Below are positions 4,446 to 48,795 of a stretch of 64,000 bases of DNA, piece by piece. Each line of letters opens with the position of its first letter. Positions within the stretch are counted from its first letter, which is position 1. A program made the position numbers and the translations under genes. Below the pieces are notes generated by a model. That model worked only from the letters and a program-made list of their open reading frames with translations, did not search any database and had not been told where the DNA came from. The DNA lies in assembly GCA_963855995.1 (NCBI GenBank), contig OY979717.1, positions 6,381,428 through 6,445,427 on the forward strand, read 5' to 3'. The stretch is from Muricea muricata. Its lineage: Eukaryota; Cnidaria; Anthozoa; Malacalcyonacea; Plexauridae.

Positions 4446-7400
4446 CATTCCGCTCGAACAAAGCGTCGGCGCCTCCACCGACGGCCTTTCAGTTGAAGCT
4501 GTGGTTGTTACTGAAGAAGGAGCAGTTCTTGGTTTTGTTCTTACTGCAGTTACAGCAATTGTTTCTTTTGCTGTTACACCAGTTCCAGCAGTTGTTGGTT
4601 TTGTTGTTACTCCAGTAGCAGAAGTTGTTGCTTTAGTTGTTACTCCAGTAGCAACAGTTGTTGCTTTAGTAGTTACTCCACTAGCAGCAGTTGTTGCTTT
4701 AGTAGTTACTCCAGTAGCGGCAGTTGTTCCTTTAGTTGTTACACCAGTTCTTGCTTTGGTTGTTACTCCAGTAGCAGCAGTTGTCAGCTTTGTTGTCACT
4801 CCAGTAGCAGCACTTGTTGCTTTTGTTGTTACACCAGTTGCAGCAGTTGGTTTTGTTGTTACTCCAGTAGAGGCAGTTGTCGCTTTAGTAGTTACTCCAG
4901 TTGCCGCAGTTGTTGCTTTGGTTGTTACTCGAGTAGCAGCAGTTGTTTCTTTAGTAGTTACTCCAGTAGCGGCAGTTGTTTCTTTAGTTGTTACCCCAGT
5001 TGTTGCTTTGGTTGTTACTCCAGTAGCAGCAGTTGTTGGTTTTGTTGTTACTCCAGTAGCAGCAGTTGTTGCTTTAGTAGTTACCCCAGTAGCAGCAGTT
5101 GTTCCTTTAGTTGTTAAACCAGTTGCTGCTTTGGTTGTTACTCCAGTAGCCACAGTTGTTGCCTGACTAGTTACTCCAGTACCGGCAGTTGTTGGTTTTG
5201 TTGTTACTACAGTAGCAGCAGTTGTGTGTTTTGTTGTTACTCCAGTAGCAGCAATTGTTGCTTTAGTAGTTACTCCAGTAGCAGCAGTGGTTGCTTTAGT
5301 TGTTACACTAGTTGTTGCTTTGGTTGTTACTCCAGTAGCAGGAGTTGTTAGTTTTGTTACTCTAGTAGCAACCGTTGTTGCTTTAGTTACTCCAGTTGCC
5401 GCAGTTGTTGCTTTGGTTGTTACTCCAATTGCAGAAGTTATTGCTTTAGTAGTTACTCCAGTAGCAGCAGTTGTTCCATTAGTTGTTACACCAGTTGTCG
5501 CTTTGGTTGTTACTCCAGTAGCAGCAGTTGTTGGTTTTGTTGTTACTCCAGTAGCAGCAGTTGCTGCTTTTGTTGTTACACCAGTTGCACCAGTTGGTTT
5601 TGTTGTTACTTCAGTAGCGGCAGTTGTCGCTTTAGTAGTTACTCCAGTTGCCGCAGTTGTTTCTTTCGTTGTTACTCGAGTAGCAGCAGTTGTTGTTTTA
5701 GTAGTTACTCCAGTAGCGACAGTTGTTGCTTTAGTTATTACACCAGTTGTCGCTTTGGTTGTTACTCCAGTAGCAGCAGTTGTTGGTTTTGTTGTTACTC
5801 CAGTAGCAGCAGTTGTTGCTTTAGTAGTTACTGCAGTAGCGGCAGTGGTCGCTTTAGTTGTTACACCCGTTTTTCCTTTGGTTGTTACTCCAGTTGCAGC
5901 AGTTGCTGGTTTTGTTGTTACTACAGTAGCAGCACTTGTTGCTTTTGTTACACCAGTTGCAGCAGTTGGTTTTGTTGTTACTTCAGTAGCGGCAGTTGTC
6001 GCTTTAGTAGTTACTCCAGTTGCCGCAGTTGTTGCTTTCGTTGTTACTCCAGTAGCAGCAGTTGTTTCTTTAGTAGTTACTCCAGTAGCGGCAGTTCTTT
6101 CTTTAGTTGTTACACCAGTTTTTGCTTTGGTTGTTACTCCACTAGCAGCAGTTGTTGGTTTTGTTGTTACTCCAGTAACAGCACTTGTTGCTTTTGTTGT
6201 TACACCAGTTGCAGCAGTTGGTTTTGTTGTTACTCCAGTAGTAGCAGCAGTTGTTGCTTTAGTAGTTACTTCAGTACCAGCAGTTGTTCCTTTAGTTGTT
6301 ACACCAGTGGCTGCTTTGGTTGTTACTCCAGTAGCCACAGTTGTTGCCTGACTAGTTACTCCAGTAGGGGCAGTTGTTGGTTTTGTTGTTACTCCAGTAG
6401 CAGCAGTTGTTGCTTTAGTAGTTACTCCAGTAGCAGCAGTTGTTGTTTTAGTTGTTACACTAGTTCTTTCTTTGGTTGTTACTCCAGTTGCAGCAGTTGT
6501 CGGCTTTGTTGTTACTCCAGTAGCAGCACTTGTTGCTTTTGTTGTTACACCAGTTGCAGCAGTTGGTTTTGTTGTTACTCCAGTAGCAGCAGTGGTCACT
6601 TCAGTAGTTACTCCAGTTGCCGCAGTTGTTGCTTTGGTTGTTACTTGAGTAGCAGCAGTTGTTGCTTTAGTAGTTACTCCAGTAGTGGCAGTTGTTGCTT
6701 TAGTTGTTACACCAGTTGTTGCTTTGGTTGTTACTCCAGTAGCAGCAGCTGTTTCTTTACTAGTTACTCCAGTAGCGGCAGTTGTTGGTTTTGTTGTTAC
6801 AACAGAAGCAGCAGTTGTCGCTTTAGTAGTTACTCCAGTTGCCGCAGTTGTTACTTTGGTTGTTACTCCAGTAGCAGCAGTTGTTGCTTTAGTAGTTACT
6901 CCAGTAGCAACAGTTGTTGCTTTAGCTGTTACACCAGTTGTCGCTTTGGTTGTTACTCCAGTAGCAGCAGTTGTGTGTTTTGTTGTTACTCCAGTAGCAG
7001 CAGTTGTTGCTTTAGTTGTTACACTAGTTGTTGCTTTGGTTGTTACTCCAGTAGCAGCAGTTGTTGGTTTTGTTGTTACCCCAGTAGCAGCAGTTGTTGC
7101 TTTAGTAGTTACTCCAGTAGCAGCACTTGTTGTTTTAGTTGTTGCACTAGTTGTTGCTTTGGTTGTTACTCCAGTTGCAGAAGTTGTTGGTTTTGTTGTT
7201 ACTACAGTAGCAGCACTTGTTGCTTTTGTTGTTACACCAGTTGCAGCAGTTGGTTTTATTGTTACTTCAGTAGCGGCAGTTGTCGCTTTAGTAGTTACTC
7301 GAGTTGCCGAAGTTGTTTCTTTGGTTGTTACTCGAGTAGCAGCAGTTGTTTCTTTAGTAGTTACTCCCGTAGCGGCAGTTGTTGCTTTAGTTGTTATGCC

Positions 7401-10400
7401 AGTTGTTGCTTTGGTTGTTACTCCAGCAGCAGCAGTTGTTGGTTTTGTTGTTACTCCAGTAGCAGCAGTTGTTGCTTTAGTAGTTACTCCAGTAACAGCA
7501 GTTGTTGTTTTATTTGTTACACTAGTTGTTGCTTTGGTTGTTACTCCAGTTGCAGCAGTTGTCGGCTTTGTTGTTACTCCAGTAGCAGCACTTGTTGCTT
7601 TTGTTGTTACACCAGTTGCAGCAGTTGCTTTTGTTGTTACTCCAGTAGCAGCAGTGGTCGCTTTAGTAGTTACTCCAGTTGCCGCAGTTGTTGCTTTGGT
7701 TGTTACTTGAGTAGCAGCAGTTGTTTTTTTAGTAGTTACTCCAGTAGCGGCAGTTGTTGCTTTAGTTGTTACACCAGTTGTTGCTTTGGTTGTTACTCCA
7801 GTAGCAGCAGTTGTTGCTTTACTAGTTACCCCAGTAGCGGCAGTTGTTGGTTTTGTTGTTACTACAGTAGTTACTCCAGTAGTTGTTACTATAGTAGTTA
7901 CTCCAGTTGCCGCAGTTGTTGCTTTGGTTGTTACTCGAGTAGCAGCAGTTCTTGTTTTAGTAGTTACTCCAGTAGCGACAGTTGTTGCTTTAGTTATTAC
8001 ACCAGTTGTCGCTTTGGTTGTTACTCCAGTAGCAGCAGTTGTTGGTTTTGTTGTTACTCCAGTAGCAGCAGTTGCTGCTTTTGTTGTTACACCAGTTGCA
8101 CCAGTTGGTTTTGTTGTTACTTCAGTAGCGGCAGTTGTCGCTTTAGTAGTTACTCCAGTTGCCGCATTTGTTTCTTTCGTTCTTACTCGAGTAGCAGCAG
8201 TTGTTGTTTTAGTAGTTACTCCAGTAGCGACAGTTGTTGCTTTAGTTATTACACCAGTTGTCGCTTTGGTTGTTACTCCAGTAGCAGCAGTTGTTGGTTT
8301 TGTTGTTACTCCAGTAGCAGCAGTTGTTGCTTTAGTAGTTACTCCAGTAACAGCAGTTGTTGTTTTATTTGTTACACTAGTTGTTGCTTTGGTTGTTACT
8401 CCAGTTGCAGCAGTTGTCGGCTTTGTTGTTACTCCAGTAGCAGCACTTGTTGCTTTTGTTGTTACACCAGTTGCAGCAGTTGCTTTTGTTGTTACTCCAG
8501 TAGCAGCAGTGGTCGCTTTAGTAGTTACTCCAGTTGCCGCAGTTGTTGCTTTGGTTGTTACTTGAGTAGCAGCAGTTGTTTTTTTAGTAGTTACTCCAGT
8601 AGCGGCAGTTGTTGCTTTAGTTGTTACACCAGTTGTTGCTTTGGTTGTTACTCCAGTAGCAGCAGTTGTTGCTTTACTAGTTACCCCAGTAGCGGCAGTT
8701 GTTGGTTTTGTTGTTACTACAGTAGCAGCAGTTGTCGCTTTAGTAGTTACTCCAGTTGCCGCAGTTGTTGCTTTGGTTGTTACTCGAGTAGCAGCAATTC
8801 TTGTTTTAGTAGTTACTCCAGTAGCGACAGTTGTTGCTTTAGTTATTACACCAGTTGTCGCTTTGGTTGTTACTCCAGTAGCAGCAGTTGTTGGTTTTGT
8901 TGTTACTCCAGTAGCAGCAGTTGCTGCTTTTGTTGTTACACCAGTTGCACCAGTTGGTTTTGTTGTTACTTCAGTAGCGGCAGTTGTCGCTTTAGTAGTT
9001 ACTCCAGTTGCCGCATTTGTTTCTTTCGTTCTTACTCGAGTAGCAGCAGTTGTTGTTTTAGTAGTTACTCCAGTAGCGACAGTTGTTGCTTTAGTTATTA
9101 CACCAGTTGTCGCTTTGGTTGTTACTCCAGTAGCAGCAGTTGTTGGTTTTGTTGTTACTCCAGTAGCAGCAGTTGTTGCTTTAGTAGTTACTGCAGTAGC
9201 GGCAGTGGTCGCTTTAGTTGTTACACCCGTTTTTCCTTTGGTTGTTACTCCAGTTGCAGCAGTTGCTGGTTTTGTTGTTACTACAGTAGCAGCACTTGTT
9301 GCTTTTGTTACACCAGTTGCAGCAGTTGGTTTTGTTGCTAGTTCAGTAGCGGCAGTTGTCGCTTTAGTAGTTACTCCAGTTGCCGCAGTTGTTGCTTTCG
9401 TTGTTACTCCAGTAGCAGCAGTTGTTTCTTTAGTAGTTACTCCAGTAGCGGCAGTTCTTTCTTTAGTTGTTACACCAGTTTTTGCTTTGGTTGTTACTCC
9501 ACTAGCAGCAGTTGTTGGTTTTGTTGTTACTCCAGTAGCAGCACTTGTTGCTTTTGTTTTTACACCAGTTGCAGCAGTTGGTTTTGTTGTTACTCCAGTA
9601 GTAGCAGCAGTTTTTGCTTTAGTAGTTACTTCAGTACCAGCAGTTGTTCCTTTAGTTGTTACACCAGTTGCTGCTTTGGTTGTTACTCCAGTAGCCACAG
9701 TTGTTGCCTGACTAGTTACTCCAGTAGGGGCAGTTGTTGGTTTTGTTGTTACTCCAGTAGCAGCAGTTGTTGCTTTAGTAGTTACTCCACTAGCAGCAGT
9801 TGTTGTTTTAGTTGTTACACTAGTTCTTTCTTTGGTTGTTACTCCAGTTGCAGCAGTTGTCGGCTTTGTTGTTACTCCAGTAGCAGCACTTGTTGCTTTT
9901 GTTGTTACACCAGTTGCAGCAGTTGGTTTTGTTGTTACTCCAGTAGCAGCAGTGGTCGCTTCAGTAGTTACTCCAGTTGCCGCAGTTGTTGCTTTCGTTG
10001 TTACTTGAGTAGCAGCAGTTGTTGCTTTAGTAGTTACTCCAGTAGCGGCAGTTGTTGCTTTAGTTGTTACACCAGTTGTTGCTTTGGTTGTTACTCCAGT
10101 AGCAGCAGCTGTTTCTTTACTAATTACTCCACTAGCGGCAGTTGTTGGTTTTGTTGTTACAACAGAAGCAGCAGTTGTCGCTTTAGTAGTTACTCCAGTT
10201 GCCGCAGTTGTTACTTTGGTTGTTACTCCAGTAGCAGCAGTTGTTGCTTTAGTAGTTACTCCAGTAGCAACAGTTGTTTCTTTAGCTGTTACACCAGTTG
10301 TCGCTTTGGTTGTTACTCCAGTAGCAGCAGTTGTGTGTTTTCTTGTTACTCCAGTAGCAGCAGTTGTTGCTTTAGTTGTTACACTAGTTGTTGCTTTGGT

Positions 10401-13400
10401 TGTTACTCCAGTAGCAGCAGTTGTTGGTTTTGTTGTTACCCCAGTAGCAGAAGTTGTTGCTTTAGTAGTTACTTCAGTAGCAGCAGTTGTTGTTTTAGTT
10501 GTTGCACTAGTTGTTGCTTTGGTTGTTACTCCAGTTGCAGAAGTTGTTGGTTTTGTTGTTACTACAGTAGCAGCACTTGTTGCTTTTGTTGTTACACCAG
10601 TTGCAGCAGTTGGTTTTGTTGTTACTTCAGTAGCGGCAGTTGTCGCTTTAGTAGTTACTCCAGTTGCCGAAGTTGTTTCTTTGGTTGTTACTCGAGTAGC
10701 AGCAGTTTTTTCTTTAGTAGTTACTCCCGTAGCGGCAGTTGTTGCTTTAGTTGTTATGCCAGTTGTTGCTTTGGTTGTTACTCCAGCAGCAGCAGTTGTT
10801 GGTTTTGTTGTTACTCCAGTAGCAGCAGTTGTTGCTTTAGTAGTTACTCCAGTAACAGCAGTTGTTGTTTTATTTGTTACACTAGTTGTTGCTTTGGTTG
10901 TTACTCCAGTTGCAGCAGTTGTCGGCTTTGTTGTTACTCCAGTAGCAGCACTTGTTGCTTTTGTTGTTACACTAGTTGCAGCAGTTGGTTTTGTTGTTAC
11001 TCCAGTAGCAGCAGTGGTCGCTTCAGTAGTTACTCCAGTTGCCGCAGTTGTTGCTTTGGTTGTTACTTGAGTAGCAGCAGTTGTTGCTTTAGTAGTTACT
11101 CCAGTAGCGGCAGTTGTTGCTTTAGTTGTTACACCAGTTGTTGCTTTGGTTGTTACTCCAGTAGCAGCAGCTGTTTCTTTACTAATTACTCCAGTAGCGG
11201 CAGTTGTTGGTTTTGTTGTTACAACAGAAGCAGCAGTTGTCGCTTTAGTAGTTACTCCAGTTGCCGCAGTTGTTACTTTGGTTGTTACTCCAGTAGCAGC
11301 AGTTGTTGCTTTAGTAGTTACTCCAGTAGCAACAGTTGTTGCTTTAGCTGTTACACCAGTTGTCGCTTTGGTTGTTACTCCAGTAGCAGTTGTGTGTTTT
11401 GTTGTTACTCCAGTAGCAGCAGTTGTTGCTTTAGTTGTTACACTAGTTGTTGCTTTGGTTGTTACTCCAGTAGCAGCAGTTGTTGCTTTTGTTGTTACCC
11501 CAGTAGCAGCAGTTGTTGCTTTAGTAGTTACTCCAGTAGCAGCAGTTGTTGTTTTAGTTGTTGCACTAGTTGTTGCTTTGGTTGTTACTCCAGTTGCAGA
11601 AGTTGTTGGTTTTGTTGTTACTACAGTAGCAGCACTTGTTGCTTTTGTTGTTACACCAGTTGCAGCAGTTGGTTTTGTTGTTACTTCAGTAGCGGCAGTT
11701 GTCGCTTTAGTAGTTACTCCAGTTGCCGAAGTTGTTTCTTTGGTTGTTACTCGAGTAGCAGCAGTTGTTTCTTTAGTAGTTACTCCCGTAGCGGCAGTTG
11801 TTGCTTTAGTTCTTATGCCAGTTGTTGCTTTGGTTGTTACTCCAGCAGCAGCAGTTGTTGGTTTTGTTGTTACTCCAGTAGCAGCAGTTGTTGCTTTAGT
11901 AGTTACTCCAGTAACAGCAGTTGTTGTTTTATTTGTTACACTAGTTGTTGCTTTGGTTGTTACTCCAGTTGCAGCAGTTGTCGCCTTTGTTGTTACTCCA
12001 GTAGCAGCACTTGTTGCTTTTGTTGTTACACCAGTAGCAGCAGTGGTCGCTTTAGTAGTTACTCCAGTTGCCGCAGTTGTTGCTTTGGTTGTTACTTGAG
12101 TAGCAGCAGTTGTTTTTTTAGTAGTTACTCCAGTAGCGGCAGTTGTTGCTTTAGTTGTTACACCAGTTGTTGCTTTGGTTGTTACTCCAGTAGCAGCAGT
12201 TGTTGCTTTACTAGTTACCCCAGTAGCGGCAGTTGTTGGTTTTGTTGTTACTTCAGTAGCGGCAGTTGTCGCTTTAGTAGTTACTCCAGTTGCCGCAGTT
12301 GTTTCTTTCGTTGTTACTCGAGTAGCAGCAGTTGTTGTTTTAGTAGTTACTCCAGTAGCGACAGTTGTTGCTTTAGTTATTACACCAGTTGTCGCTTTGG
12401 TTGTTACTCCAGTAGCCACAGTTGTTGCCTGACTAGTTACTCCAGTAGCGGCAGTTGTTGGTTTTGTTGTTACTCCAGTAGCAGCAGTTGTTGCTTTAGT
12501 AGTTACTCCAGTAGCAGCAGTTGTTGTTTTAGTTGTTACACTAGTTGTTTCTTTGCTTGTTACTCCAGTTGCAGCAGTTGTCGGCTTTGTTGTTACTCCA
12601 GTAGCAGCACTTGTTGCTTTTGTTGTTACACCAGTTGCAGCAGTTGGTTTTGTTGTTACTCCAGTAGCAGCAGTGGTCGCTTCAGTAGTTACTCAAGTTG
12701 CCGCAGTTGTTGCTTTGGTTGTTACACCAGTTGTTGCTTTGGTTGTTACTCCAGTAGCAGCAGCTGTTTCTTTACTAGTTACTCCAGTAGCGGCAGTTGT
12801 TGGTTTTGTTGTTACAACAGTAGCAGCAGTTGTCGCTTTAGTAGTTACTCCAGTTGCCGCAGTTGTCACTTTGGTTGTTACTCCAGTAGCAGCAGTTGTT
12901 GCTTTAGTAGTTACTCCAGTAACAGCAGTTGTTGTTTTATTTGTTACACTAGTTGTTGCTTTGGTTGTTACTCCAGTTGCAGCAGTTGTCGGCTTTGTTG
13001 TTACTCCAGTAGCAGCACTTGTTGCTTTTGTTGTTACACTAGTTGCAGCAGTTGGTTTTGTTGTTACTCCAGTAGCAGCAGTGGTCGCTTCAGTAGTTAC
13101 TCCAGTTGCCGCAGTTGTTGCTTTGGTTGTTACTTGAGTAGCAGCAGTTGTTGCTTTAGTAGTTACTCCAGTAGCGGCAGTTGTTGCTTTAGTTGTTACA
13201 CCAGTTGTTGCTTTGGTTGTTACTCCAGTAGCAGCAGCTGTTTCTTTACTAATTACTCCAGTAGCGGCAGTTGTTGGTTTTGTTGTTACAACAGAAGCAG
13301 CAGTTGTCGCTTTAGTAGTTACTCCAGTTGCCGCAGTTGTTACTTTGGTTGTTACTCCAGTAGCAGCAGTTGTTGCTTTAGTAGTTACTCCAGTAGCAAC

Positions 13401-16400
13401 AGTTGTTGCTTTAGCTGTTACACCAGTTGTCGCTTTGGTTGTTACTCCAGTAGCAGTTGTGTGTTTTGTTGTTACTCCAGTAGCAGCAGTTGTTGCTTTA
13501 GTTGTTACACTAGTTGTTGCTTTGGTTGTTACTCCAGTAGCAGCAGTTGTTGCTTTTGTTGTTACCCCAGTAGCAGCAGTTGTTGCTTTAGTAGTTACTC
13601 CAGTAGCAGCAGTTGTTGTTTTAGTTGTTGCACTAGTTGTTGCTTTGGTTGTTACTCCAGTTGCAGAAGTTGTTGGTTTTGTTGTTACTACAGTAGCAGC
13701 ACTTGTTGCTTTTGTTGTTACACCAGTTGCAGCAGTTGGTTTTGTTGTTACTTCAGTAGCGGCAGTTGTCGCTTTAGTAGTTACTCCAGTTGCCGAAGTT
13801 GTTTCTTTGGTTGTTACTCGAGTAGCAGCAGTTGTTTCTTTAGTAGTTACTCCCGTAGCGGCAGTTGTTGCTTTAGTTCTTATGCCAGTTGTTGCTTTGG
13901 TTGTTACTCCAGCAGCAGCAGTTGTTGGTTTTGTTGTTACTCCAGTAGCAGCAGTTGTTGCTTTAGTAGTTACTCCAGTAACAGCAGTTGTTGTTTTATT
14001 TGTTACACTAGTTGTTGCTTTGGTTGTTACTCCAGTTGCAGCAGTTGTCGCCTTTGTTGTTACTCCAGTAGCAGCACTTGTTGCTTTTGTTGTTACACCA
14101 GTAGCAGCAGTGGTCGCTTTAGTAGTTACTCCAGTTGCCGCAGTTGTTGCTTTGGTTGTTACTTGAGTAGCAGCAGTTGTTTTTTTAGTAGTTACTCCAG
14201 TAGCGGCAGTTGTTGCTTTAGTTGTTACACCAGTTGTTGCTTTGGTTGTTACTCCAGTAGCAGCAGTTGTTGCTTTACTAGTTACCCCAGTAGCGGCAGT
14301 TGTTGGTTTTGTTGTTACTTCAGTAGCGGCAGTTGTCGCTTTAGTAGTTACTCCAGTTGCCGCAGTTGTTTCTTTCGTTGTTACTCGAGTAGCAGCAGTT
14401 GTTGTTTTAGTAGTTACTCCAGTAGCGACAGTTGTTGCTTTAGTTATTACACCAGTTGTCGCTTTGGTTGTTACTCCAGTAGCCACAGTTGTTGCCTGAC
14501 TAGTTACTCCAGTAGCGGCAGTTGTTGGTTTTGTTGTTACTCCAGTAGCAGCAGTTGTTGCTTTAGTAGTTACTCCAGTAGCAGCAGTTGTTGTTTTAGT
14601 TGTTACACTAGTTGTTTCTTTGCTTGTTACTCCAGTTGCAGCAGTTGTCGGCTTTGTTGTTACTCCAGTAGCAGCACTTGTTGCTTTTGTTGTTACACCA
14701 GTTGCAGCAGTTGGTTTTGTTGTTACTCCAGTAGCAGCAGTGGTCGCTTCAGTAGTTACTCAAGTTGCCGCAGTTGTTGCTTTGGTTGTTACACCAGTTG
14801 TTGCTTTGGTTGTTACTCCAGTAGCAGCAGCTGTTTCTTTACTAGTTACTCCAGTAGCGGCAGTTGTTGGTTTTGTTGTTACAACAGTAGCAGCAGTTGT
14901 CGCTTTAGTAGTTACTCCAGTTGCCGCAGTTGTCACTTTGGTTGTTACTCCAGTAGCAGCAGTTGTTGCTTTAGTAGTTACTCCAGTAGCGACAGTTGTT
15001 GCTTTAGTTGTTACACCAGTTGTCGCTTCGGTTGTTACTCCAGTAGCAGCAGTTGTGTGTTTTGTTGTTACTCCAGTAGTAGCAGTTGTTGCTTTAGTTG
15101 TTACACTAGTTGTTGCTTTGGTTGTTACTCCAGTAGCAGCAGTTGTTGGTTTTGTTGTTACCCCAGTAGCAGCAGTTGTTGCTTTAGTAGTTATTCCAGT
15201 AGCAGCAGTTGTTGTCTTAGTTGTTGCACTAGTTGTTTCTTTGGTTGTTACTCGAGTAGCAGCAGTTGTTTCTTTAGTAGTTACTCCAGTAGCGGCAGTT
15301 GTTGCTTTAGTTGTTATGCCAGTTTTTGCTTTGGTTGTTACTCCAGCAGCAGCAGTTAATGGTTTTGTTCTTACTCCAGTAATAGCAGTTGTTGCTTTAG
15401 TAGTTACTCCAGTAATAGCAGTTGTTGCTTTAGTAGTTACTCCAGTAACACCAGTTGTTTTATTTGTTACACTAGTTGTTGCTTTGGTTGTTACTCCAGT
15501 TGCAGCAGTTGTCGGCTTTGTTGTTACTCCAGTAGCAGCACTTGTTGCTTTTGTTGTTACACCAGTTGCAGCAGTTGCTTTTGTTGTTACTCCAGTAGCA
15601 GCAGTGGTCGCTTTAGTAGTTACTCCAGTTGCCGCAGTTGTTGCTTTGGTTGTTACTTGAGTAGCAGCAGTTGTTGCTTTAGTAGTTACTTCAGTAGCGG
15701 CAGTTGTTGCTTTAGTTGTTACACCAGTTGTTGCTTTGGTTGTTACTCCAGTAGCAGCAGTTGTTTCTTTACTGGTTACTCCAGTAGCGGCAGTTGTTGG
15801 TTTTGTTGTTACTACAGTAGCAGCAGTTGTCGCTTTAGTAGTTACTCCACTTGTCGCAGTTGTTACTTTGGTTGTTACTAGAGTAGCAGCAGTTGTTGCT
15901 TTAGTAGTTACTCCAGTAGCGACAGTTGTTGCTTTAGTTATTACACCAGTTGCAGCAGTTGTTGCTTTAGTTGTTACTCCAGTAGCAGCAGTTGTTGTTT
16001 TAGTAGTTACTCCAGTTTTTGCTTTGGTTGTTACTCCAGCAGCAGCAGTTGTTATTTTTGTTGTTACTCGAGTGGCAGCAGTTGTTGCTTTAGTAGTTAC
16101 TCCAGTAGCGGCAGTTGTTGCTTTAGTTGTTACCCCAGTCGTTGCTTTGGTTGTTACTCCACCAGCAGTTGTTGGTTTTGTTGTTACTCCAGTAGCAGCA
16201 GTTGTTGCTTTAGTAGTTACTCCAGTAGCAGCAGTTGTTGTTTTAGTTGTTACACTAGTTGTTGCTTTGGTTGTTACTCCAGTTGCAGCAGTTGTCGGCA
16301 TTGTTGTTACTCCAGTAGCAGCACTTGTTTCTTTTGTTGTTACACCAGTTGGTTTTGTATTTACTCCAGTAGCAGCAGTGGTCGCTTTAGTAGTTACTCC

Positions 16401-34400: not shown

Positions 34401-37400
34401 CGTAGCGGCAGTTGTTGCTTTAGTTCTTATGCCAGTTGTTGCTTTGGTTGTTACTCCAGCAGCAGCAGTTGTTGGTTTTGTTGTTACTCCAGTAGCAGCA
34501 GTTGTTGCTTTAGTAGTTACTCCAGTAACAGCAGTTGTTGTTTTATTTGTTACACTAGTTGTTGCTTTGGTTGTTACTCCAGTTGCAGCAGTTGTCGCCT
34601 TTGTTGTTACTCCAGTAGCAGCACTTGTTGCTTTTGTTGTTACACCAGTAGCAGCAGTGGTCGCTTTAGTAGTTACTCTAGTTGCCGCAGTTGTTGCTTT
34701 GGTTGTTACTTGAGTAGCAGCAGTTGTTTTTTTAGTAGTTACTCCAGTAGCGGCAGTTGTTGCTTTAGTTGTTACACCAGTTGTTGCTTTGGTTGTTACT
34801 CCAGTAGCAGCAGTTGTTGCTTTACTAGTTACCCCAGTAGCGGCAGTTGTTGGTTTTGTTGTTACTTCAGTAGCGGCAGTTGTCGCTTTAGTAGTTACTC
34901 CAGTTGCCGCAGTTGTTTCTTTCGTTGTTACTCGAGTAGCAGCAGTTGTTGTTTTAGTAGTTACTCCAGTAGCGACAGTTGTTGCTTTAGTTATTACACC
35001 AGTTGTCGCTTTGGTTGTTACTCCAGTAGCCACAGTTGTTGCCTGACTAGTTACTCCAGTAGCGGCAGTTGTTGGTTTTGTTGTTACTCCAGTAGCAGCA
35101 GTTGTTGCTTTAGTAGTTACTCCAGTAGCAGCAGTTGTTGTTTTAGTTGTTACACTAGTTGTTTCTTTGCTTGTTACTCCAGTTGCAGCAGTTGTCGGCT
35201 TTGTTGTTACTCCAGTAGCAGCACTTGTTGCTTTTGTTGTTACACCAGTTGCAGCAGTTGGTTTTGTTGTTACTCCAGTAGCAGCAGTGGTCGCTTCAGT
35301 AGTTACTCCAGTTGCCGCAGTTGTTGCTCTGGTTGTTACACCAGTTGTTGCTTTGGTTGTTACTCCAGTAGCAGCAGCTGTTTCTTTACTAGTTACTCCA
35401 GTAGCGGCAGTTGTTGGTTTTGTTGTTACAACAGTAGCAGCAGTTGTCGCTTTAGTAGTTACTCCAGTTGCCGCAGTTGTCACTTTGGTTGTTACTCCAG
35501 TAGCAGCAGTTGTTGCTTTAGTAGTTACTCCAGTAGCGACAGTTGTTGCTTTAGTTGTTACACCAGTTGTCGCTTCGGTTGTTACTCCAGTAGCAGCAGT
35601 TGTGTGTTTTGTTGTTACTCCAGTAGTAGCAGTTGTTGCTTTAGTTGTTACACTAGTTGTTGCTTTGGTTGTTACTCCAGTAGCAGCAGTTGTTGGTTTT
35701 GTTGTTACCCCAGTAGCAGCAGTTGTTGCTTTAGTAGTTATTCCAGTAGCAGCAGTTGTTGTCTTAGTTGTTGCACTAGTTGTTTCTTTGGTTGTTACTC
35801 GAGTAGCAGCAGTTGTTTCTTTAGTAGTTACTCCAGTAGCGGCAGTTGTTGCTTTAGTTGTTATGCCAGTTTTTGCTTTGGTTGTTACTCCAGCAGCAGC
35901 AGTTAATGGTTTTGTTCTTACTCCAGTAATAGCAGTTGTTGCTTTAGTAGTTACTCCAGTAACACCAGTTGTTTTATTTGTTACACTAGTTGTTGCTTTG
36001 GTTGTTACTCCAGTTGCAGCAGTTGTCGGCTTTGTTGTTACTCCAGTAGCAGCACTTGTTGCTTTTGTTGTTACACCAGTTGCAGCAGTTGCTTTTGTTG
36101 TTACTCCAGTAGCAGCAGTGGTCGCTTTAGTAGTTACTCCAGTTGCCGCAGTTGTTGCTTTGGTTGTTACTTGAGTAGCAGCAGTTGTTGCTTTAGTAGT
36201 TACTTCAGTAGCGGCAGTTGTTGCTTTAGTTGTTACACCAGTTGTTTCTTTGGTTGTTACTCCAGTAGCAGCAGTTGTTTCTTTACTGGTTACTCCAGTA
36301 GCGGCAGTTGTTGGTTTTGTTGTTACTACAGTAGCAGCAGTTGTCGCTTTAGTAGTTACTCCACTTGTCGCAGTTGTTACTTTGGTTGTTACTAGAGTAG
36401 CAGCAGTTGTTGCTTTAGTAGTTACTCCAGTAGCGACAGTTGTTGCTTTAGTTATTACACCAGTTGCAGCAGTTGTTGCTTTAGTTGTTACTCCAGTAGC
36501 AGCAGTTGTTGTTTTAGTAGTTACTCCAGTTTTTGCTTTGGTTGTTACTCCAGCAGCAGCAGTTGTTATTTTTGTTGTTACTCGAGTGGCAGCAGTTGTT
36601 GCTTTAGTAGTTACTCCAGTAGCGGCAGTTGTTGCTTTAGTTGTTACCCCAGTCGTTGCTTTGGTTGTTACTCCACCAGCAGTTGTTGGTTTTGTTGTTA
36701 CTCCAGTAGCAGCAGTTGTTGCTTTAGTAGTTACTCCAGTAGCAGCAGTTGTTGTTTTAGTTGTTACACTAGTTGTTGCTTTGGTTGTTACTCCAGTTGC
36801 AGCAGTTGTCGGCATTGTTGTTACTCCAGTAGCAGCACTTGTTTCTTTTGTTGTTACACCAGTTGGTTTTGTATTTACTCCAGTAGCAGCAGTGGTCGCT
36901 TTAGTAGTTACTCCAGTTGCCGCAGTTGTTGCTTTGGTTGTTACTTGAGTAGCAGCAGTTGTTACTTTAGTAGTTACTCCAGTAGCAGCAGTTGTTGTTT
37001 TAGTTGTTACACTAGTTGTTTCTTTGGTTGTTACTCCAGTTGCAACAGTTGTCGGCTTTGTTTTTACTCCAGTAGCAGCACTTGTTGCTTTTGTTGTTAC
37101 ACCAGTTGAAGCAGTTGGTTTTGTTGTTACTCCACTAGCAGCAGTGGTCGCTTTAGTAGTTACTCCAGTTGCCGCAGTTGTTGCTTTGGTTGTTACTTGA
37201 GTAGCAGCAGTTGCTGCTTTAGTAGTTACTCGAGTAGCGGCAGTTGTTGCTTTAGTTATTACACCAGTTGTCGCTTTGGTTGTTACTCTAGTACCAGCAG
37301 TTGTTGGCTTTGTTGTTACTCCAGTAGCAGCAGTTGTTGCTTTAGTAGTTACTCCAGTAGCAGCACTTGTTGCTTTTGTTGTTACACCAGTTGCAGCAGT

Positions 37401-40400
37401 TGGTTTTGTTGTTACACCAGTAGTAGCAGCAGTTGTTGCTTTAGTAGTTACTCCAGTAGCAGCAGTTGTTCCTTTAGTTGTTACACCAGTTGCTGCTTTG
37501 GTTGTTACTCCAGTAGCCACAGTTGTTGCCTGACTAGTTACTCCAGTAGCGGCAGTTGTTGGTTTTGTTGTTACTCCAGTAGCAGCAGTTGTTGCTTTAG
37601 TAGTTACTCCAGTAGCAGCAGTTGTTGTTTTAGTTGTTACACTAGTTGTTTCTTTGGTTGTTACTCCAGTTGCAGCAGTTGTCGGCTTTGTTGTTACTCC
37701 AGTAGCAGCACTTGTTGCTTTTGTTGTTACACCAGTTGCAGCAGTTGGTTTTGTTGTTACTCCAGTAGCAGCAGTGGTCGCTTCAGTAGTTACTCCAGTT
37801 GCCACAGTTGTTGCTTTGGTTGTTACTTGAGTAGCAGCAGTTGTTTCTTTAGTAGTTACTCCAGTAGCGGCAGTTGTTGCTTTGGTTGTTACTCCAGTAG
37901 CAGCAGCTGTTTCTTTACTAGTTACTCCAGTAGCGGCAGTTGTTGGTTTTGTTGTTACAACAGTAGCAGCAGTTGTCGCTTTAGTAGTTACTCCAGTTGC
38001 CGCAGTTGTTACTTTGGTTGTTACTCCAGTAGCAGCAGTTGTTGCTTTAGTAGTTACTCCAGTAGCGACAGTTGTTGCTTTAGCTGTTACACCAGTTGTC
38101 GCTTTGGTTGTTACTCCAGTAGCAGCAGTTGTGTGTTTTGTTGTTACTCCAGTAGCAGCAGTTGTTGCTTTAGTTGTTACACTAGTTGTTGGCTTTGTTG
38201 TTACTCCAGTAGCAGCAGTTGTTGGTTTTGTTGTTACCCCAGTAGCAGCAGTTGTTGCTTTAGCAGTTACTCCAGTAGCAGCAGTTGTTGTTTTAGTTGT
38301 TGCACTAGTTGTTGCTTTGGTTGTTACTCCAGTTGCAGAAGTTGTTGGTTTTGTTGTTACTACAGTAGCAGCACTAATTGCTTTTGTTGTTACACCAGTT
38401 GCAGCAGTTGGTTTTGTTGTTACTTCAGTAGCGGCAGTTGTCGCTTTAGTAGTTACTCCAGTTGCCGAAGTTGTTTCTTTGGTTGTTACTCGAGTAGCAG
38501 CAGTTGTTTCTTTAGTAGTTACTCCAGTAGCGGCAGTTGTTGCTTTAGTTGTTATGCCAGTTGTTGCTTTGGTTGTTACTCCAGCAGCAGCAGTTGTTGG
38601 TTTTGTTGTTACTCCAGTAGCAGCAGTTGTTGCTTTAGTAGTTACTCCAGTAACAGCAGTTGTTGTTTTATTTGTTACACTAGTTGTTGCTTTGGTTGTT
38701 ACTCCAGTTGCAGCAGTTGTCGGCTTTGTTGTTACTCCAGTAGCAGCACTTGTTGCTTTTGTTGTTACACCAGTTGCAGCAGTTGCTTTTGTTGTTACTC
38801 CAGTAGCAGCAGTTGTCGCTTTAGTAGTTACTCCAGTTGCCGCAGTTGTTGCTTTGCTTGTTACTCGAGTAGCAGCAATTGTTGCTTTAGTAGTTACTCC
38901 AGTAGCAGCAGTTGTTCCTTTAGTTGTTACACCAGTTGCTGCTTTGGTTGTTACTCCAGTAGCCACAGTTGTTGCCTGACTAGTTACTCCAGTAGCGGCA
39001 GTTGTTGGTTTTGTTGTTACTCCAGTAGCAGCAGTTGTTGCTTTACTAGTTACTCCAGTAGCAGCAGTTGTTGCTTTAGTAGTTACTCCAGTAGCAGCAG
39101 TTGTTGTTTTAGTTGTTACACTAGTTGTTTCTTTGGTTGTTACTCCAGTTGCAGCAGTTGTCGGCTTTGTTGTTACTCCAGTAGCAGCACTTGTTGCTTT
39201 TGTTGTTACACCAGTGGCAGCAGTTGGTTTTGTTGTTACTCCAGTAGCAGCAGTGGTCGCTTCAGTAGTTACTCCAGTTGCCGCAGTTGTTGCTTTGGTT
39301 GTTACTTGAGTAGCAGCAGTTGTTGCTTTAGTAGTTACTGCAGTAGCGGCAGTGGTCGCTTTAATTGTTACACCAGTTTTTGCTTTGGTTGTTACTCCAG
39401 TAGCAGCACTTGTTGCTTTTGTTGTTACACCAGTTGCAGCAGTTGTTGCTTTGGTTGTTAGTCGAGTAGCAGCAGTTGTTGCTTTGGTGGTTACTCCAGT
39501 AGCGGCAGTTGTTGCCTTAGTTGTTACACCAGTTGTTGCTTTGGTTGTTACTCCAGTAGCAGCAGTTGTTGGTTTTGTTGTTACTACAGTAGCAGCACTT
39601 GTTGGTTTTGTTGTTACACCAGTTGCAGCACTTGGTTTTGTTGTTACTCCAGTAGCGGCAGTTGTCGCTTTAATAGTTACTCCAGTTGCCGCCGTTGTTA
39701 CTTTGGTTGTTACTCGAGTAGCAGCAGTTGTTTCTTTAGTAGTTACTCCAGTAGCAGCAGTTGTTGTTTTAGTTGTCACACTAGTTGTTGCTTTGGTTGT
39801 TACTCCAGTAGCAGCAGTTGGCTTTGTTGGCACTCCAGTAGCAGCACTTGTTGCTTTTGTTGTTACACCAGTTGCAGGAGTTGGTTTTGTTGTTACTCCA
39901 GTAGTGGCAGTTGTCGCTTTAGTAGTTACTCCAGTTGCCACAGTTGTTGCTTTAGTTGTTACTTGAGTAGCAGCAGTTGTTGCTTTAGTAGTTACTCCAG
40001 TAGCGGCAGTTGTTGCTTTAGTTGTTACACCAGTTGTTGCTTTGGTTGTTACTCCAGTAGCAGCAGTTGTTGCTTTAGTAGTTACTCCAGTAGCAGCAGT
40101 TGTTGTTTTAGTTGTTACACTAGTTGTTGCTTTGGTTGTTACTCCAGTTGCAGCAGTTGTCGGCTTTGTTGTTACTCCAGTAGCAGCACTTGTTGCTTTT
40201 GTTGTTACACCAGTTTCAGCAATTGGTTTTGTTGTTACTCCAGTAGCAGCAGTGGTCGCTTTAGTAGTTACTCCTGTTGCCGCAGTTGTTGCTTTGGTTG
40301 TTACTTGAGTAGCAGCAGTTGTTGCTTTAGTAGTTACTTCAGTAGCGGCAGTTGTTGCTTTAGTTGTTACACCAGTTGTTGCTTTGGTTGTTACTCCAGT

Positions 40401-43400
40401 AGCAGCAGTTTTTGCTTTACTAGTTACTTCAGTAGCGGCAGTTGTTGGTTTTGTTGTTAGTACAGTAGCAGCAGTTGTCGCTTTAGTAGTTACTCCAGTT
40501 GCCGCAGTTGTCGCTTTAGTAGTTTTTCCAGTTGCCGCAGTTGTTGCTTTGGTTGTTACTCGAGTAGCAGCAGTTGTTGCTTTAGTAGTTACTCCAGTAG
40601 CAACAGTTGTTGCTTTAGTTGTTACACCATTTGTCGCTTTGGTTGTTACTCCAGTAGCAGCAGTTGTTGTTTTAGTTGTCACACTAGTTGTTGCTTTGGT
40701 TGTTGCTGCAGTAGCAGCAGTTTGCTTTGTTGGCACTCCAGTAGCAGCACTTGTTGCTTTTGTTGTTACACCAGTTGCAGGAGTTCGTTTTGTTGTTACT
40801 CCAGTAGCGGCAGTATTCGCTTTAGTAGTTACTCCAGTTGCCACAGTTGTTGCTTTAGTTGTTACTTGAGTAGCAGCAGTTGTTGCTTTAGTAGTTACTC
40901 CAGTAGCGGCAGTTGTTGCTTTAGTTGTTACACCAGTTGTTGCTTTGGTTGTTACTCCAGTAGCAGCAGTTGTTGCTTTAGTAGTTACTCCAGTAGCAGC
41001 AGTTGTTGTTTTAGTTGTTACACTAGTTGTTGCTTTGGTTGTTACTCCAGTTGCAGCAGTTGTCGGCTTTGTTGTTACTCCAGTAGCAGCACTTGTTGCT
41101 TTTGTTGTTACACCAGTTTCAGCAGTTGGTTTTGTTGTTACTCCAGTAGCAGCAGTGGTCGCTTTAGTAGTTACTCCTGTTGCCGCAGTTGTTGCTTTGG
41201 TTGTTACTTGAGTAGCAGCAGTTGTTGCTTTAGTAGTTACTTCAGTAGCGGCAGTTGTTGCTTTAGTTGTTACACCAGTTGTTGCTTTGGTTGTTACTCC
41301 AGTAGCAGCAGTTTTTGCTTTACTAGTTACTTCAGTAGCGGCAGTTGTTGGTTTTGTTGTTACTACAGTAGCAGCAGTTGTCGCTTTAGTAGTTACTCCA
41401 GTTGCCGCAGTTGTCGCTTTAGTAGTTTTTCCAGTTGCCGCAGTTGTTGCTTTATTTGTTACTCGAGTAGCAACAGTTGTTGCTTTAGTAGTTACTCCAG
41501 TAGCAACAGTTGTTGCTTTAGTTGTTACACCAGTTGTCGCTTTGGTTGTTACTCCAGTAGCAGCAGTTGTTGTTTTAGTTGTCACACTAGTTGTTGCTTT
41601 GGTTGTTACTCCAGTAGCAGCAGTTGGCTTTGTTGGCACTCCAGTAGCAGCACTTGTTGCTTTTGTTGTTACACCAGTTGCAGGAGTTCGTTTTGTTGTT
41701 ACTCCAGTAGCGGCAGTATTCGCTTTAGTAGTTACTCCAGTTGCCACAGTTGTTGCTTTAGTTGTTACTTGAGTAGCAGCAGTTGTTGCTTTAGTAGTTA
41801 CTCCAGTAGCGGCAGTTGTTGCTTTAGTTGTTACACCAGTTGTTGCTTTGGTTGTTACTCCAGTAGCAGCAGTTGTTGCTTTAGTAGTTACTCCAGTAGC
41901 AGCAGTTGTTGTTTTAGTTGTTACACTAGTTGTTGCTTTGGTTGTTACTCCAGTTGCAGCAGTTGTCGGCTTTGTTGTTACTCCAGTAGCAGCACTTGTT
42001 GCTTTTGTTGTTACACCAGTTTCAGCAATTGGTTTTGTTGTTACTCCAGTAGCAGCAGTGGTCGCTTTAGTAGTTACTCCTGTTGCCGCAGTTGTTGCTT
42101 TGGTTGTTACTTGAGTAGCAGCAGTTGTTGCTTTAGTAGTTACTTCAGTAGCGGCAGTTGTTGCTTTAGTTGTTACACCAGTTGTTGCTTTGGTTGTTAC
42201 TCCAGTAGCAGCAGTTTTTGCTTTACTAGTTACTTCAGTAGCGGCAGTTGTTGGTTTTGTTGTTACTACAGTAGCAGCAGTTGTCGCTTTAGTAGTTACT
42301 CCAGTTGCCGCAGTTGTCGCTTTAGTAGTTTTTCCAGTTGCCGCAGTTGTTGCTTTGGTTGTTACTCGAGTAGCAGCAGTTGTTGCTTTAGTAGTTACTC
42401 CAGTAGCAACAGTTGTTGCTTTAGTTGTTACACCAGTTGTCGCTTTGGTTGTTACTCCAGTAGCAGCAGTTGTTTGTTTTGTTGTTACTCCAGTAGCAGC
42501 AGTTGTTGCTTTAGTAGTTACTGCAGTAGCGGCAGTGGTCGCTTTAGTTGTTGCACCAGTTTTTGCTTTGGTTGTTACTCCAGTAGCAGCACTTGTTGCT
42601 TTTGTTGTTACACCAGTGGCAGCAGTTGTTTCTTTTGTTGTTACACCAGTTGCAGCAGTTGTTGGTTTTGTTGTTACCCCAGTAGCAGCAGTTGTTGCTT
42701 TAGTTGTTACACCAGTTGTTGCTTTGGTTGTTACTCCAGTAGCAGCAGTTGTTGGTTTTGTTGTTACTACAGTAGCAGCACTTGTTGCTTTTGTTGTTAC
42801 ACCAGTTGCAGCACTTGGTTTTGTTGTTACTCCAGTAGCGGCAGTTGTCGTTTTAGTAGTTACTCCAGTTGCCGCAGTTGTTGCTTTGGTTGTTACTCGA
42901 GTAGCAGCAGTTGTTTCTTTAGTAGTTACTCCAGTAGCAGCAGTTGTTGTTTTAGTTGTCACACTAGTTGTTGCTTTGGTTGTTACTCCAGTAGCAGCAG
43001 TTGGCTTTGTTGTCACTCCAGTAGCAGCACTTGTTGCTTTTGTTGTTACACCAGTTGCAGGAGTTGGTTTTGTTGTTACTCCAGTAGCAGCAGTGGTCAC
43101 TTTAGTAGTAACTCCAGTTGCCGCAGTTGTTGCTTTGGTTGTTACTTGAGTAGCAGCAGTTGTTGCTTTAGTAGTTACTTCAGTAGCGGCAGTTGTTGCT
43201 TTAGTTGTTACACCAGTTGTTGCTTTGGTTTTTACTCCAGTAGCGGCAGTTGTTGGTTTTGTTGTTACTACAGTAGCAGCAGTTGTCGCTTTAGTAGTTA
43301 CTCCAGTTGCCGCAGTTGTCGCTTTAGTAGTTTTTCCAGTTGGCGCAGTTGTTCTTTTGGTTGTTACTCGAGTAGCAGCAGTTGTTGCTTTAGTAGTTAC

Positions 43401-46330
43401 TCCAGTAGCAACAGTTGTTTCTTTAGTTGTTACACCAGTTGTCGCTTTGGTTGTTACTCCAGTAGCAGCAGTTGTTTGTTTTGTTGTTACTCCAGTAGCA
43501 GCAGTTGTTGCTTTAGTAGTTACTGCAGTAGCGGCAGTGGTCGCTTTAGTTGTTGCACCAGTTTTTGCTTTGGTTGTTACTCCAGTAGCAGCACTTGTTG
43601 CTTTTGTTGTTACACCAGTTGCAGCAGTTGTTGCTTTGGTTGTTACTCGAGTAGCAGCAGTTGTTGCTTTGGTGGTTACTCCAGGAGCAGCAGTTGTTGC
43701 TTTAGTTACTCCAGTTGCCGCAGTTGTTGCTTTGGTTGTTACTCCAGTTGCAGAAGTTATTGCTTTAGTAGTTACTCCAGTAGCAGCAGTTGTTGCATTA
43801 GTTGTTACACCAGTTTTTGCTTTGGTTGTTACTCCAGTAACAACAGTTGTTGGTTTTGTTACTACATAAGAAGCAGTTGTTGCTTTTGTTGTTACACCAG
43901 TTGCAGCAGTTTTTGGTTTTGTTGTTACCCCAGTAGCAGCAGTTGTTTGTTTAGTTGTTACACCAGTTGTTGCTTTGGTTGTTACTCCAGTAGCAGCAGT
44001 TGTTGGTTTTGTTGTTACTACGGTAGCAGCACTTGTTGCTTTTGTTGTTACACCAGTTGCAGCACTTGGTTTTGTTGTTACTCCAGTAGCGGTAGTTGTC
44101 GCTTTAGTAGTTACTCCAGTTGCCGCAGTTGTTGCTTTGGTTGTTACTCGAGTAGCAGCAGTTTTTTCTTTAGTAGTTACCCCAGTAGCAGCAGTTGTAG
44201 TTTTAGTTGTCACACTAGTTGTTGCTTTGGTTGTTACTCTAGTAGCAGCAGTTGTCGGCTTTATTGTCACTCCAGTAGCAGCACTTGTGGCTTTTTTTGT
44301 TACACCAGTTGCAGCAGTTGGTTTTGTTGTTACTCCAGTAGCGGCAGTTGTCGCTTTAGTAGTTACTCCAGTTGCCGCAGTTGTTGCTTTGGTTCTTACT
44401 CGAGTAGCAGCAGTTGTTTCTTTAGTAGTTACTCCAGTAGCGGCAGTTGTTGCTTTAGTTGTTACTTGAGTAGCAGCAGTTGTTGCTTTAGTTGTTACAC
44501 CAGTTGTTGCTTTGGTTGTTACTCCAGTAGCAGCAGTTTTTGCTTCACTAGTTACTTCAGTAGCGGCAGTTGTTGGTTTTGTTGTTACTACAGTAGCAGC
44601 AGTTGTCACTTTAGTAGTTACTCCAGTTGCCGCAGTTGTTGCTTTGGTTGTTACTCGAGTAGCAGCAGTTGTTGCTTTAGTAGTTACTCCAGTAGTGACA
44701 GTTGTTTCTTTAGTTGTTACACCAGTTGTCGCTTTGGTTGTTACTCCAGTAGCAGCAGTTGTTGGTTTTGTTGTTACTCCAGTAGCAGCAGTTGTTGCTT
44801 TAGTAGTTACTCCAGTAGCGGCAATTGTTGCTTGAGTTGTTACACCAGTTTTTGCTTTGGTTGTTACTCCAGTAGCAGCAGTTGTTGGTTTTGTTGTTAC
44901 TCCAGTAGCTGCAGTTGTTGCTTTAGTAGTTACTCCAGTTGCCACAATTGTTGCTTCGGTTGTTACTCCAGTAGCAGCAGTTGTTTCTTTTGTAGTTACT
45001 CCAGTAGCAGTAATTGTTTCTTCAGTAGTTACAGCAGTTGCAGCAGTTGTTGGTTTTATCGCTACACCAGTTGCAGCATTTGTTCCTTGGGTTAGTACTT
45101 CAGCAGCAGTTGTTGCTTTAGTGGTTAGACCAGGTGCAGCAGTTGTTGCTTTAGTTGTTACTCCAGTTATTGCTTTAGTTGCTACTCCGGTTTCAGCAGT
45201 TGTTGCTTTCGTTGTTACACGAGTTGTAGCAGTTGTTGCTTTGGTTGTTACACGTGTTACAGGGATTGTTGCTTTGGTTGTTACTCCAGTTGCAGCAGTT
45301 GTTGGTTTTGTTGTTAGTCCAGTAGCAGCAGTTGTTGCTTTAGTAGTTACTCCAGTAGCAGGAGTCGTTTCTTTAGTTGTTATGCCAGTTGTTGCTTTCG
45401 TTGTTACTCCAGTAGCAGCAGTTGTTTCTTCAGTAGTTACTCCAGTAGCAGCAGTTGTTGCTTTAGTTGTTACACCAGTTGCAGCAGTTGTTACACCAGT
45501 TGCAGCAGTTTTTGCTTTAGTTGATACCCCAGTTTTTGCTTTAGTTGTTACTCTGGTTGCAGCAGTTGTTGCTTTCGTTGTTACACCAGTTCTAGCAGTT
45601 GTTGCTTTGGTTGTTACACCTGTTACAGGGATTGTTGGTTTTGTTGTTACTCCAGTAGTAGCAGTTGTTGCTTTAATTGTTACACTAGTTGTTGCTTTGG
45701 TTGTTACGGCAGTAGCAGCAGTTGTTGGTTTTGTTGTTACAGCAGTTACACCAGTTGTTGCTTGGGTTGTTACTCCACTAGCAGCAGTTTTTTCTTTGGT
45801 TGTTACACCAGTTGCCGCAGTTGTTGCTTTAGTTGTTACTCCAGTTGTTGCTTTGGTTTTTACTCCAGTAGCAGCAGTTGTTGCTTTAGTAGTTACCCCA
45901 GTTGCTGCAGTAGTTTCTTTGATTATTACTCCAGTAGCAGCAGTTGTTGGTTTTGTTGTTACACCAGTTGCTGCAGTTGTTTCTTTGGTTGTTGCAGCAG
46001 TTGTTGGTTTTATCTTTACACCAGTTGCAGCTGTTGTTTTAATGGTTGTGACTTCTGTTGCTGCAGTTGTTGCTTTTGTCGTTACTCCAGTTGTACTTGA
46101 TCGAGCTTTTGTTGTCACCCCTGTTACTGGTGGAATTGTTGCCACTCCAGGTGCAGCTGATGTCAATTTTGTAACAATTGCTGGAGGAGCAGTTGTTATA
46201 TTCGTTTTATTCGTTGTCACGCCAGTTGATTCTTTTGTTGTTATTCCTGTTGCAGCAGTTGTTGCTTTGGTTGTTGGTCCAGTTGTAACAGCTGTTGGTT
46301 GTGCTTTGAATCCAGTTGAAGCCGTTGCCC
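4446..46330 (-). CDS. Giant Thr/Ala/Lys mucin-type repeat exon, about 13,960 codons (exon 22)
   Basis: This is one 41,885 nt exon, phase 1 in and phase 0 out. The acceptor follows a pyrimidine-rich tract and ends TTTAATAG at 46331; the donor GGAATG|GTATGT is at 4445. After a short unique start (GFKAQPTAVTTGPTTK) it consists of about 1,300 tandem units of the ATGVTTKATTA type, with 8-residue variants (TGVTTKAT). Thr is by far the commonest residue, then Ala and Lys or Gly. Pro occurs mainly as TTKPTT, and I saw no Cys. Dense Thr implies heavy O-glycosylation; frequent NKT triplets (VTNKTT) are N-glycosylation sequons. It ends SVEAPTLCSSGM before the TIL exon. Two in-frame TGA codons interrupt it; otherwise it is open throughout. 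About one Lys per unit and few Asp/Glu make it strongly basic, unusual for a mucin. Assembly of such an array may be imperfect. Confidence 0.9.
12693..12695 (-). other. Second in-frame TGA stop codon, copy of the first
   Basis: The same single-base difference occurs exactly 2067 bp from the first TGA, inside the tandem duplicate. Downstream the frame is open to the splice donor at 4445. Homologous units at 31758-31760 and 35307-35309 keep GGA. Confidence 0.85.
14760..14762 (-). other. In-frame TGA stop codon within the mucin exon (first in translation order)
   Basis: The plus-strand text reads gttactcaagttgccg where homologous units read gttactccagttgccg. On the coding strand this changes GGA (Gly) to TGA. 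Translation would stop after about 10,520 mucin codons. The frame stays open beyond it to 12695. Confidence 0.85.
15660..20300 (-). repeat. Segment duplicated about 20.5 kb away (36.2-40.0 kb)
   Basis: Blocks at 15,736, 16,683, 17,368 and 18,838 recur at 36,250, 37,197, 37,882 and 39,352. The offset is a constant 20,514 bp (6838 codons). A local 849 bp duplication (18,838 versus 19,687) is present only in the lower-coordinate copy, so it arose after, or was lost from, the other copy. Confidence 0.8.
20298..24260 (-). repeat. Higher-order repeat block of about 903 bp units, A/B alternating
   Basis: The same ordered set of variant units recurs every 903 bp (for example starting near 21,241, 22,144 and 23,047), with an 870 bp shortened copy near 23,390-24,260. 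Two subtypes alternate, marked on the plus strand by gttgctgcagtagcagcag (type A, near 21,070 and 22,875) or the standard actccagtagc (type B). The full period is therefore about 1,806 bp. The same block recurs at about 25,620-29,100 and 39,960-42,500. Confidence 0.85.
24330..30500 (-). repeat. Segment pair with 4398 bp spacing
   Basis: Blocks starting at 24,331 and 25,117 recur at 28,729 and 29,515 (offset 4398 bp, 1466 codons). The second copy also matches 10,084-11,070 with an offset of 19,431 bp. This shows that long pieces of the array have been copied between distant positions without breaking the frame. Confidence 0.8.
30570..37330 (-). repeat. 3549 bp tandem duplication inside the mucin exon
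   Basis: A rare variant, cagttgcagaaggttttgg, occurs at about 30,656 and again 3549 bp later at about 34,205. The block from about 32,620 to 33,730 recurs at about 36,170 to 37,280 with the same offset (1183 codons). A third, older copy of the 32.6-33.7 kb block lies 16,965 bp away at about 15,660-16,770. Confidence 0.85.
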
Positions 46331-46776: not shown

Positions 46777-46832
46777 CTGGTAAAATAGAGCAGGTTGGTC
46801 CGGTACATTCTAGACAGCCAGATTTGCAGATG
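46777..46832 (-). CDS. Short E/VWC-like exon just before the mucin exon (exon 21)
   Basis: This is a 56 nt exon, acceptor CATTCCAG and donor CCAG|GTTATT, phase 2-1. It encodes CICKSGCLECTGPTC then SILP. It matches the C-x-C-x-x-G ending after TIL in the other modules and fits both neighbours' phases. The Trp of the motif is absent and an extra Cys is present. It is slightly less certain because the donor (GTTATT) is weaker. Confidence 0.78.
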
Positions 46833-48058: not shown

Positions 48059-48070
48059 CTTCAAGGATTG

Positions 48071-48638: not shown

Positions 48639-48795
48639 GACAAAGTTCTTGTGTTCTCCACTTGATATGAATACCATGTCTGTTACATTCTCTTGAATAA
48701 GCAGCTATTGCTGTGCACATACATTCACAATCCCCACCTGTGTCGCAGCCACAAGCATCATAATAACAATCCTCAAAGAAGGGCTCTGGATCAAC
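48639..48795 (-). CDS. C8 domain 3, second half (exon 19)
   Basis: The exon is 157 nt, phase 0 in and phase 1 out (acceptor GCCCTCAG, donor TGTC|GTAAGT). It starts [20 protein letters not shown], then [15 protein letters not shown] and [11 protein letters not shown]. It continues C8 from HDK|VDP, the usual CHxxVDP motif cut by the intron. Confidence 0.92.

Follow-up and report, generated by a model that had tools for sequence, protein, structure and literature searches.

The giant exon described here is likely the mucin-domain exon of an octocoral gel-forming-mucin-like gene, in a copy or allele of a tandem set that became null very recently. It lies in a stretch of 64,000 nucleotides (the window; C2:6381428-6445427 in a genome assembled to 453 Mb and 74 contigs). 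As assembled, its reading frame is interrupted by two in-frame TGA codons that are copies of one mutation (Table 1), and this copy can probably not give rise to the full 14,000-residue protein. The limits and splice-site phases proposed in a first-pass annotation were recovered (41,885 bp on the minus strand), and its arithmetic of 2 + 41,883 bases for 13,961 codons is correct. The acceptor (TTTAATAG/GGG) is in phase 1 and the donor (GGAATG/GTATGT) in phase 0. With phases assigned by eye, the exon joins in phase both to the 56-bp Cys exon upstream and to the TIL/VWC/LDLa exon downstream, as had been claimed.

Table 1. Features of the window and of the sister gene copies. Positions are those of the window unless a contig is named; slashes in sequences mark exon borders.
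Feature	Position	Strand	Remarks
Giant mucin-type exon	4446..46330	-	41,885 bp; 13,961 codons after 2 bases
First in-frame TGA, codon 10,523 of 13,961	14760..14762	-	GGA in related segments
Second in-frame TGA, codon 11,212	12693..12695	-	Copy of first TGA
Exact 2,115-bp repeat, copy 1 (one TGA inside)	10807..12921	-	Offset 2,067 bp
Exact 2,115-bp repeat, copy 2 (other TGA inside)	12874..14988	-	Offset 2,067 bp
Upstream 56-bp Cys exon, ends in phase 1	46777..46832	-	Donor CCAG/GTTATT
TIL3 exon	47142..47379	-	Pfam TIL, 38.0 bits
Third VWD-C8 assembly (D3), several exons	48634..50171	-	Pfam and PDB comparison
TIL region preceding D3, stop-to-stop ORF	50214..50462	-	
Second VWD-C8-TIL assembly, several exons	52561..54656	-	Pfam
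First VWD-C8-TIL assembly, several exons	55420..57625	-	Pfam
Five EGF-like ORFs	59726..62142	-	Four above Pfam cut-off, one just below
Downstream exon: TIL, VWC, LDLa; phase-0 acceptor	2842..3355	-	Pfam
F5/8C exon, first half	2392..2636	-	Pfam match only with both halves joined
F5/8C second half and two LDLa	1195..1628	-	Pfam
ORF with three LDLa	470..1075	-	Pfam
Sister exon, copy A	C2:6137027-6166971		9,981 codons, 0 stops, same acceptor and donor
Sister exon, copy B	C2:6256737-6276430		6,564 codons, 0 stops, same acceptor and donor

The earlier claim of a single kept frame holds in that there is no frameshift over the entire length of the exon, but not as regards its openness: instead of encoding some 14,000 residues, the assembled frame is cut by a TGA after 10,522 codons, counted from the acceptor. 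In a six-frame scan it appears as stop-to-stop stretches of 10,538, 688 and 2,754 codons, which run slightly past the exon. The other two sense frames contain 1,393 and 825 stops against two in the coding frame, so that its openness is not due to chance. The antisense frames, with 26, 66 and 1,794 stops, are in part also fairly open, and a long ORF here is therefore not by itself proof of coding. The 11-residue unit GVTTKATTAAT is followed throughout the exon, and deviations from it are losses of whole codons (332 skips, 219 of three codons and 106 of one), together with four inserted residues. Threonine makes up 43% of the exon and threonine plus serine 45.4% across the 13,961 codons; the longest stretch lacking both is 6 residues, and the threonine positions of the unit have kept T or S in 93-98% of cases. 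With only 2% proline, this is a PTS domain in a loose sense only.

Clues on the origin of the stops were obtained from related segments of the array. A stretch of 903 bp surrounding the first TGA is 99.889% identical to nucleotides 14119-15021 of the exon, within the same array, and the sole difference is the stop itself, which is GGA there. Another segment, 99.779% identical to the surroundings of the TGA, likewise has GGA at this site, as do 12 of the 14 matches listed, the remaining two being the TGA copies themselves. Taken together, the single-base difference and the exact 2,115-bp repeat indicate one G-to-T change (GGA to TGA), later copied by an internal duplication of 2,067 bp, with both events recent. 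In the exons downstream of the stops, segments comparable in all three gene copies contain 2 synonymous and 2 nonsynonymous changes found solely in the window copy, and no pseudogene decay beyond the stops was seen in the flanking segments compared between copies. Such absence of decay is expected of a very young stop, and equally of an intact gene.

The gene belongs to a set of three. A 601-bp VWD fragment of it has three matches on contig C2, at 6170128, 6279585 and 6430927, and the three copies lie head to tail within this one 71.7-Mb contig at spacings of about 110 and 150 kb, each with three C8 domain matches and with in-phase splice sites at both ends of its giant exon. The tandem units are 95.1-99.6% alike across pieces of 1.2 to 13 kb and contain copy-specific insertions. 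The window copy (copy C) is the last of the three and has the longest array (6,564, 9,981 and 13,961 codons in order of size). For 450-bp segments, the median identity of the best match within the same array is 99.6% in A, 99.1% in B and 100% in C, as compared to 91.9-94.2% for the best match in a different copy. Hence the arrays have been rebuilt from within, at a pace exceeding divergence between the copies. Array edges and flanks are mostly 98-99% alike between copies; as an exception, the second 450-bp segment of A reaches at best 87.4%, so not all edge segments match everywhere. The arrays grow by frame-keeping internal duplications: in all 685 of the exact repeat pairs of at least 100 bp in the window array the offset is divisible by 3, and the longest exact repeat measures 2,669 bp.

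The tandem units also carry ORFs of 843-1,000 codons (C2:6187300-6189879, 6195152-6197926, 6297936-6300464 and 6351167-6354166), which are probably transposon genes; two of them have what we take to be THAP-like starts. MITE-like inverted repeats are present in the introns adjoining the giant exon (window positions 47619-48059, 46420-46634 and 3383-3637), with arms of 80, 75 and 67 nt that are 95, 81 and 78% complementary, respectively.

Selection on the arrays was assessed from 320 synonymous, 928 missense and 1 nonsense events across the three copies; codons separated by two or more changes from any common one were excluded and each minor codon was scored a single time per sequence context, the counts being proxies for independent events. 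The one distinct nonsense event contrasts with 12.9 expected from per-type synonymous rates, a low estimate since the synonymous G-to-T rate is zero from 248 opportunities, or with 26.4 expected from a flat rate. In a matched class of changes (A or G to T at codon position 1), nonsense was found at 1 of 1,927 opportunities and missense at 60 of 9,516; after the strictest removal of duplicates the figures were 1 of 407 and 35 of 2,165. Missense changes as a whole (928) are close to the 917 expected from a flat rate, with 390 expected from per-type rates. No amino-acid constraint beyond avoidance of stops was detected by this missense test across the three arrays, and with missense changes occurring at the flat rate, what is preserved in the array is its openness more than its sequence. 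In hand-picked segments of the flanking coding sequence, comparison of B with C gives 18 synonymous and 21 nonsynonymous changes (19 segments, dN/dS 0.31) and that of A with C gives 8 and 6 (11 segments, dN/dS 0.20), at a dS of 0.012-0.015, and neither gaps nor stops were found in these segments.

The earlier view of the exon as a coding domain and not a chance minisatellite is borne out by the open frames of the sister exons, the shortage of nonsense changes and the constraint on the flanking exons. A non-coding minisatellite in an intron of a VWD gene would profit from the fact that a stop-free repeat unit stays open for free, and that antisense frames are long too. Nevertheless, this reading is hardly credible: the sister exons are open across 30 and 20 kb, the repeat offsets are all divisible by 3 (685/685), nonsense changes are depleted relative to matched missense changes, and all three copies have in-phase splice sites at either end of the exon. 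A minisatellite open by chance was rejected on the sister frames, the offsets in threes and the nonsense depletion. It is also conceivable that the assembly is at fault, with the copies representing partly uncollapsed haplotypes, or with the length of the array or the 2,067-bp duplication being wrong. Indeed, the copies differ by about 1-2% (dS 0.012-0.015), as might result from heterozygosity in a marine invertebrate, and the sizes of their arrays differ twofold. Three head-to-tail copies on one contig with copy-specific insertions are, however, difficult to obtain from a diploid with two haplotypes only, and the longest exact repeat of the array, at 2,669 bp, is below usual long-read length, which makes such an artefact very unlikely.

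More weight, albeit still a minor share, is given to the possibility that the gene in the window is intact and produces a mucin domain of nearly 14,000 residues, with the TGA being a consensus error or being circumvented by readthrough or splicing. The stop amounts to one base in 903 bp, and there is no lesion elsewhere in the gene; on the other hand, the same base is present at two separate places. The TGA is followed directly by GTA, which is not known to favour readthrough. As for splicing, the best acceptor-like sites up to 1.5 kb away from the stops reach 3.0 and 4.4 with a generic weight matrix, against 5.9-12.6 for seven accepted acceptors and 7.3 for that of the giant exon itself, and a short intron around the stops was rejected on account of these weak acceptor-like sites. 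Donor-like sites near the stops score up to 5.9, within the span of accepted donors (4.7-7.9), and an acceptor-like site at 4510, near the end of the giant exon, scores 8.2; a long intron removing both stops can thus be envisaged. Skipping of the whole exon was discarded because joining phase 1 to phase 0 would break the frame.

Judged from its predicted domains, the gene is gel-forming-mucin-like. In addition to the domains of Table 1, its 3′ part features a TIL domain and VWC-like pieces, at least six LDLa in all (one in the exon at 2842-3355 and at least five further ones) and an F5_F8_type_C domain that scores 36.9 bits across the two joined exons. About 4.5 kb past the edge of the window lies a cystine knot (Pfam DAN, 39.1 bits; Cys_knot, 39.1 bits) matching the structures of Norrin, MUC2, VWF and gremlin (1.7e-5 to 8.1e-5). 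The Pfam scan covered 30 pieces, part of the coding sequence, and several VWC-like pieces and one EGF-like piece scored under the cut-offs. About 430-610 bp below window position 1, a short piece of an ORF, also in the 3′ part of the gene, displays the same style of mucin repeat (...TTKPATT...GVTTKATK...).

Shared with the gel-forming mucins MUC2, MUC5AC, MUC5B, MUC6 and MUC19 are the three N-terminal VWD assemblies, VWC, a C-terminal cystine knot and a large central repeat exon rich in O-glycosylation sites. Unlike these mucins, the octocoral gene has EGF-like units ahead of the first VWD and LDLa and F5/8C beyond its mucin part, no fourth VWD-C8 was seen in it, nor, searching without a CysD model, a CysD, and its repeat is composed of Thr, Ala, Val and Lys, with proline at 2%. 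An intact frame, a further trait of gel-forming mucins, is found in both sisters but not in the window copy. Disruption of a giant exon is already known from MUC19, for which no human haplotype studied has a complete ORF (excerpt of PMC13345508). Compared with solved structures, the D3 assembly gives its best single stretch with MUC2 D3 (258 bits). Summed scores place FCGBP first (575 bits over six stretches), a protein with many VWD assemblies whose best stretch, at 118 bits, is less than half that of MUC2 D3. In the D3 alignment, mapped to VWF columns, the column of the intermolecular cysteine in C8-3 holds Cys, and that of the TIL3 cysteine holds Tyr, beside an alignment gap. Dimers of MUC5AC D3 are linked by cysteines in both C8-3 and TIL3 (excerpt of PMC11933400).

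SCO-spondin resembles the gene in its three VWD-TIL assemblies, F5/8C, tandem LDLa, several TIL and VWC, and CTCK, and in addition carries EMI and 27 TSR; the excerpt of PMC8487547 describes it without a mucin exon. Among the 30 pieces scanned with Pfam, which represent part of the coding sequence, TSP_1 had no match and neither had EMI, two N-terminal ORFs lacking any Pfam match. Orthology to SCO-spondin was rejected: LDLa and F5/8C agree with it, but TSR were not found in these pieces. Human MUC12 and MUC4 are membrane-tethered mucins of other architecture. They share with the gene very large coding repeat exons, variable in length and in frame (excerpt of PMC13345508). The longest human MUC12 allele has a predicted 23,080 aa, its repeat exon being called the largest in the human genome, and human MUC4 alleles reach 27,843 bp (same excerpt). 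Coding repeat exons of such size are thus already known, and the octocoral exon can fairly be counted among the largest single exons of animals, as was claimed, but not as a record.

By analogy with the polymer model for gel-forming mucins (excerpts of PMC1552070 and PMC11933400), the sister proteins would form dimers via the C-terminal cystine knot and be linked at D3, and their densely O-glycosylated, Thr-rich stalks may thus build polymers in mucus. The window copy would at best yield a truncated chain without LDLa, F5/8C and the cystine-knot part; alternatively, its mRNA could be removed by nonsense-mediated decay, as a stop far from the last exon usually triggers mRNA decay. The TGA precedes every downstream domain. 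Either truncation or loss of mRNA would make this a very young null copy or null allele.

It is tempting to speculate that the three genes form a graded set of about 6,600, 10,000 and 14,000 codons, in which arrays were rebuilt independently between flanks that are 98-99% alike, and growth by internal duplication can spread a stop no less easily than a coding repeat, lengthening the mucin and also multiplying its lesions; we consider this possible, if on the doubtful side. In its boldest form, this proposal would have all three genes, the longest included, expressed as graded gel polymers. In the literature searched, which was not exhaustive, we found no cnidarian tandem trio of giant-exon mucins with LDLa and F5/8C, no nonsense codon copied by array growth, and no publication on this octocoral gene. 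Giant mucin exons are poorly known outside vertebrates, and three tandem copies in one genome allow growth, homogenisation and loss of arrays to be compared side by side. The copied stop is direct evidence that nonsense mutations are spread by duplication within a coding array, and implies that a long assembled array need not equal a long protein.

Other features were noted elsewhere in the genome. Contig C74 is mitochondrial, with cox1 and cox2 on opposite strands as is typical of octocorals, and contains a MutS gene (C74:15972-16499). Mitochondrial MutS occurs in every octocoral but in none of the hexacorals examined (excerpt of PMC3166940), which identifies the animal as an octocoral. A nuclear copy of mitochondrial DNA at C1:38414782-38416095 comprises cox1, with a single stop, and a portion of cox2, arranged as in the mitochondrial contig. 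C8 domains recur at a near-constant distance of about 3,535 bp, five times, at C3:57175424-57189749, and at about 4,296 bp, five times and again nine times, at C1:108662996-108680372 and C1:108903892-108938461; these evenly spaced loci have the appearance of multi-VWD genes of great length or of tandem arrays of young age.
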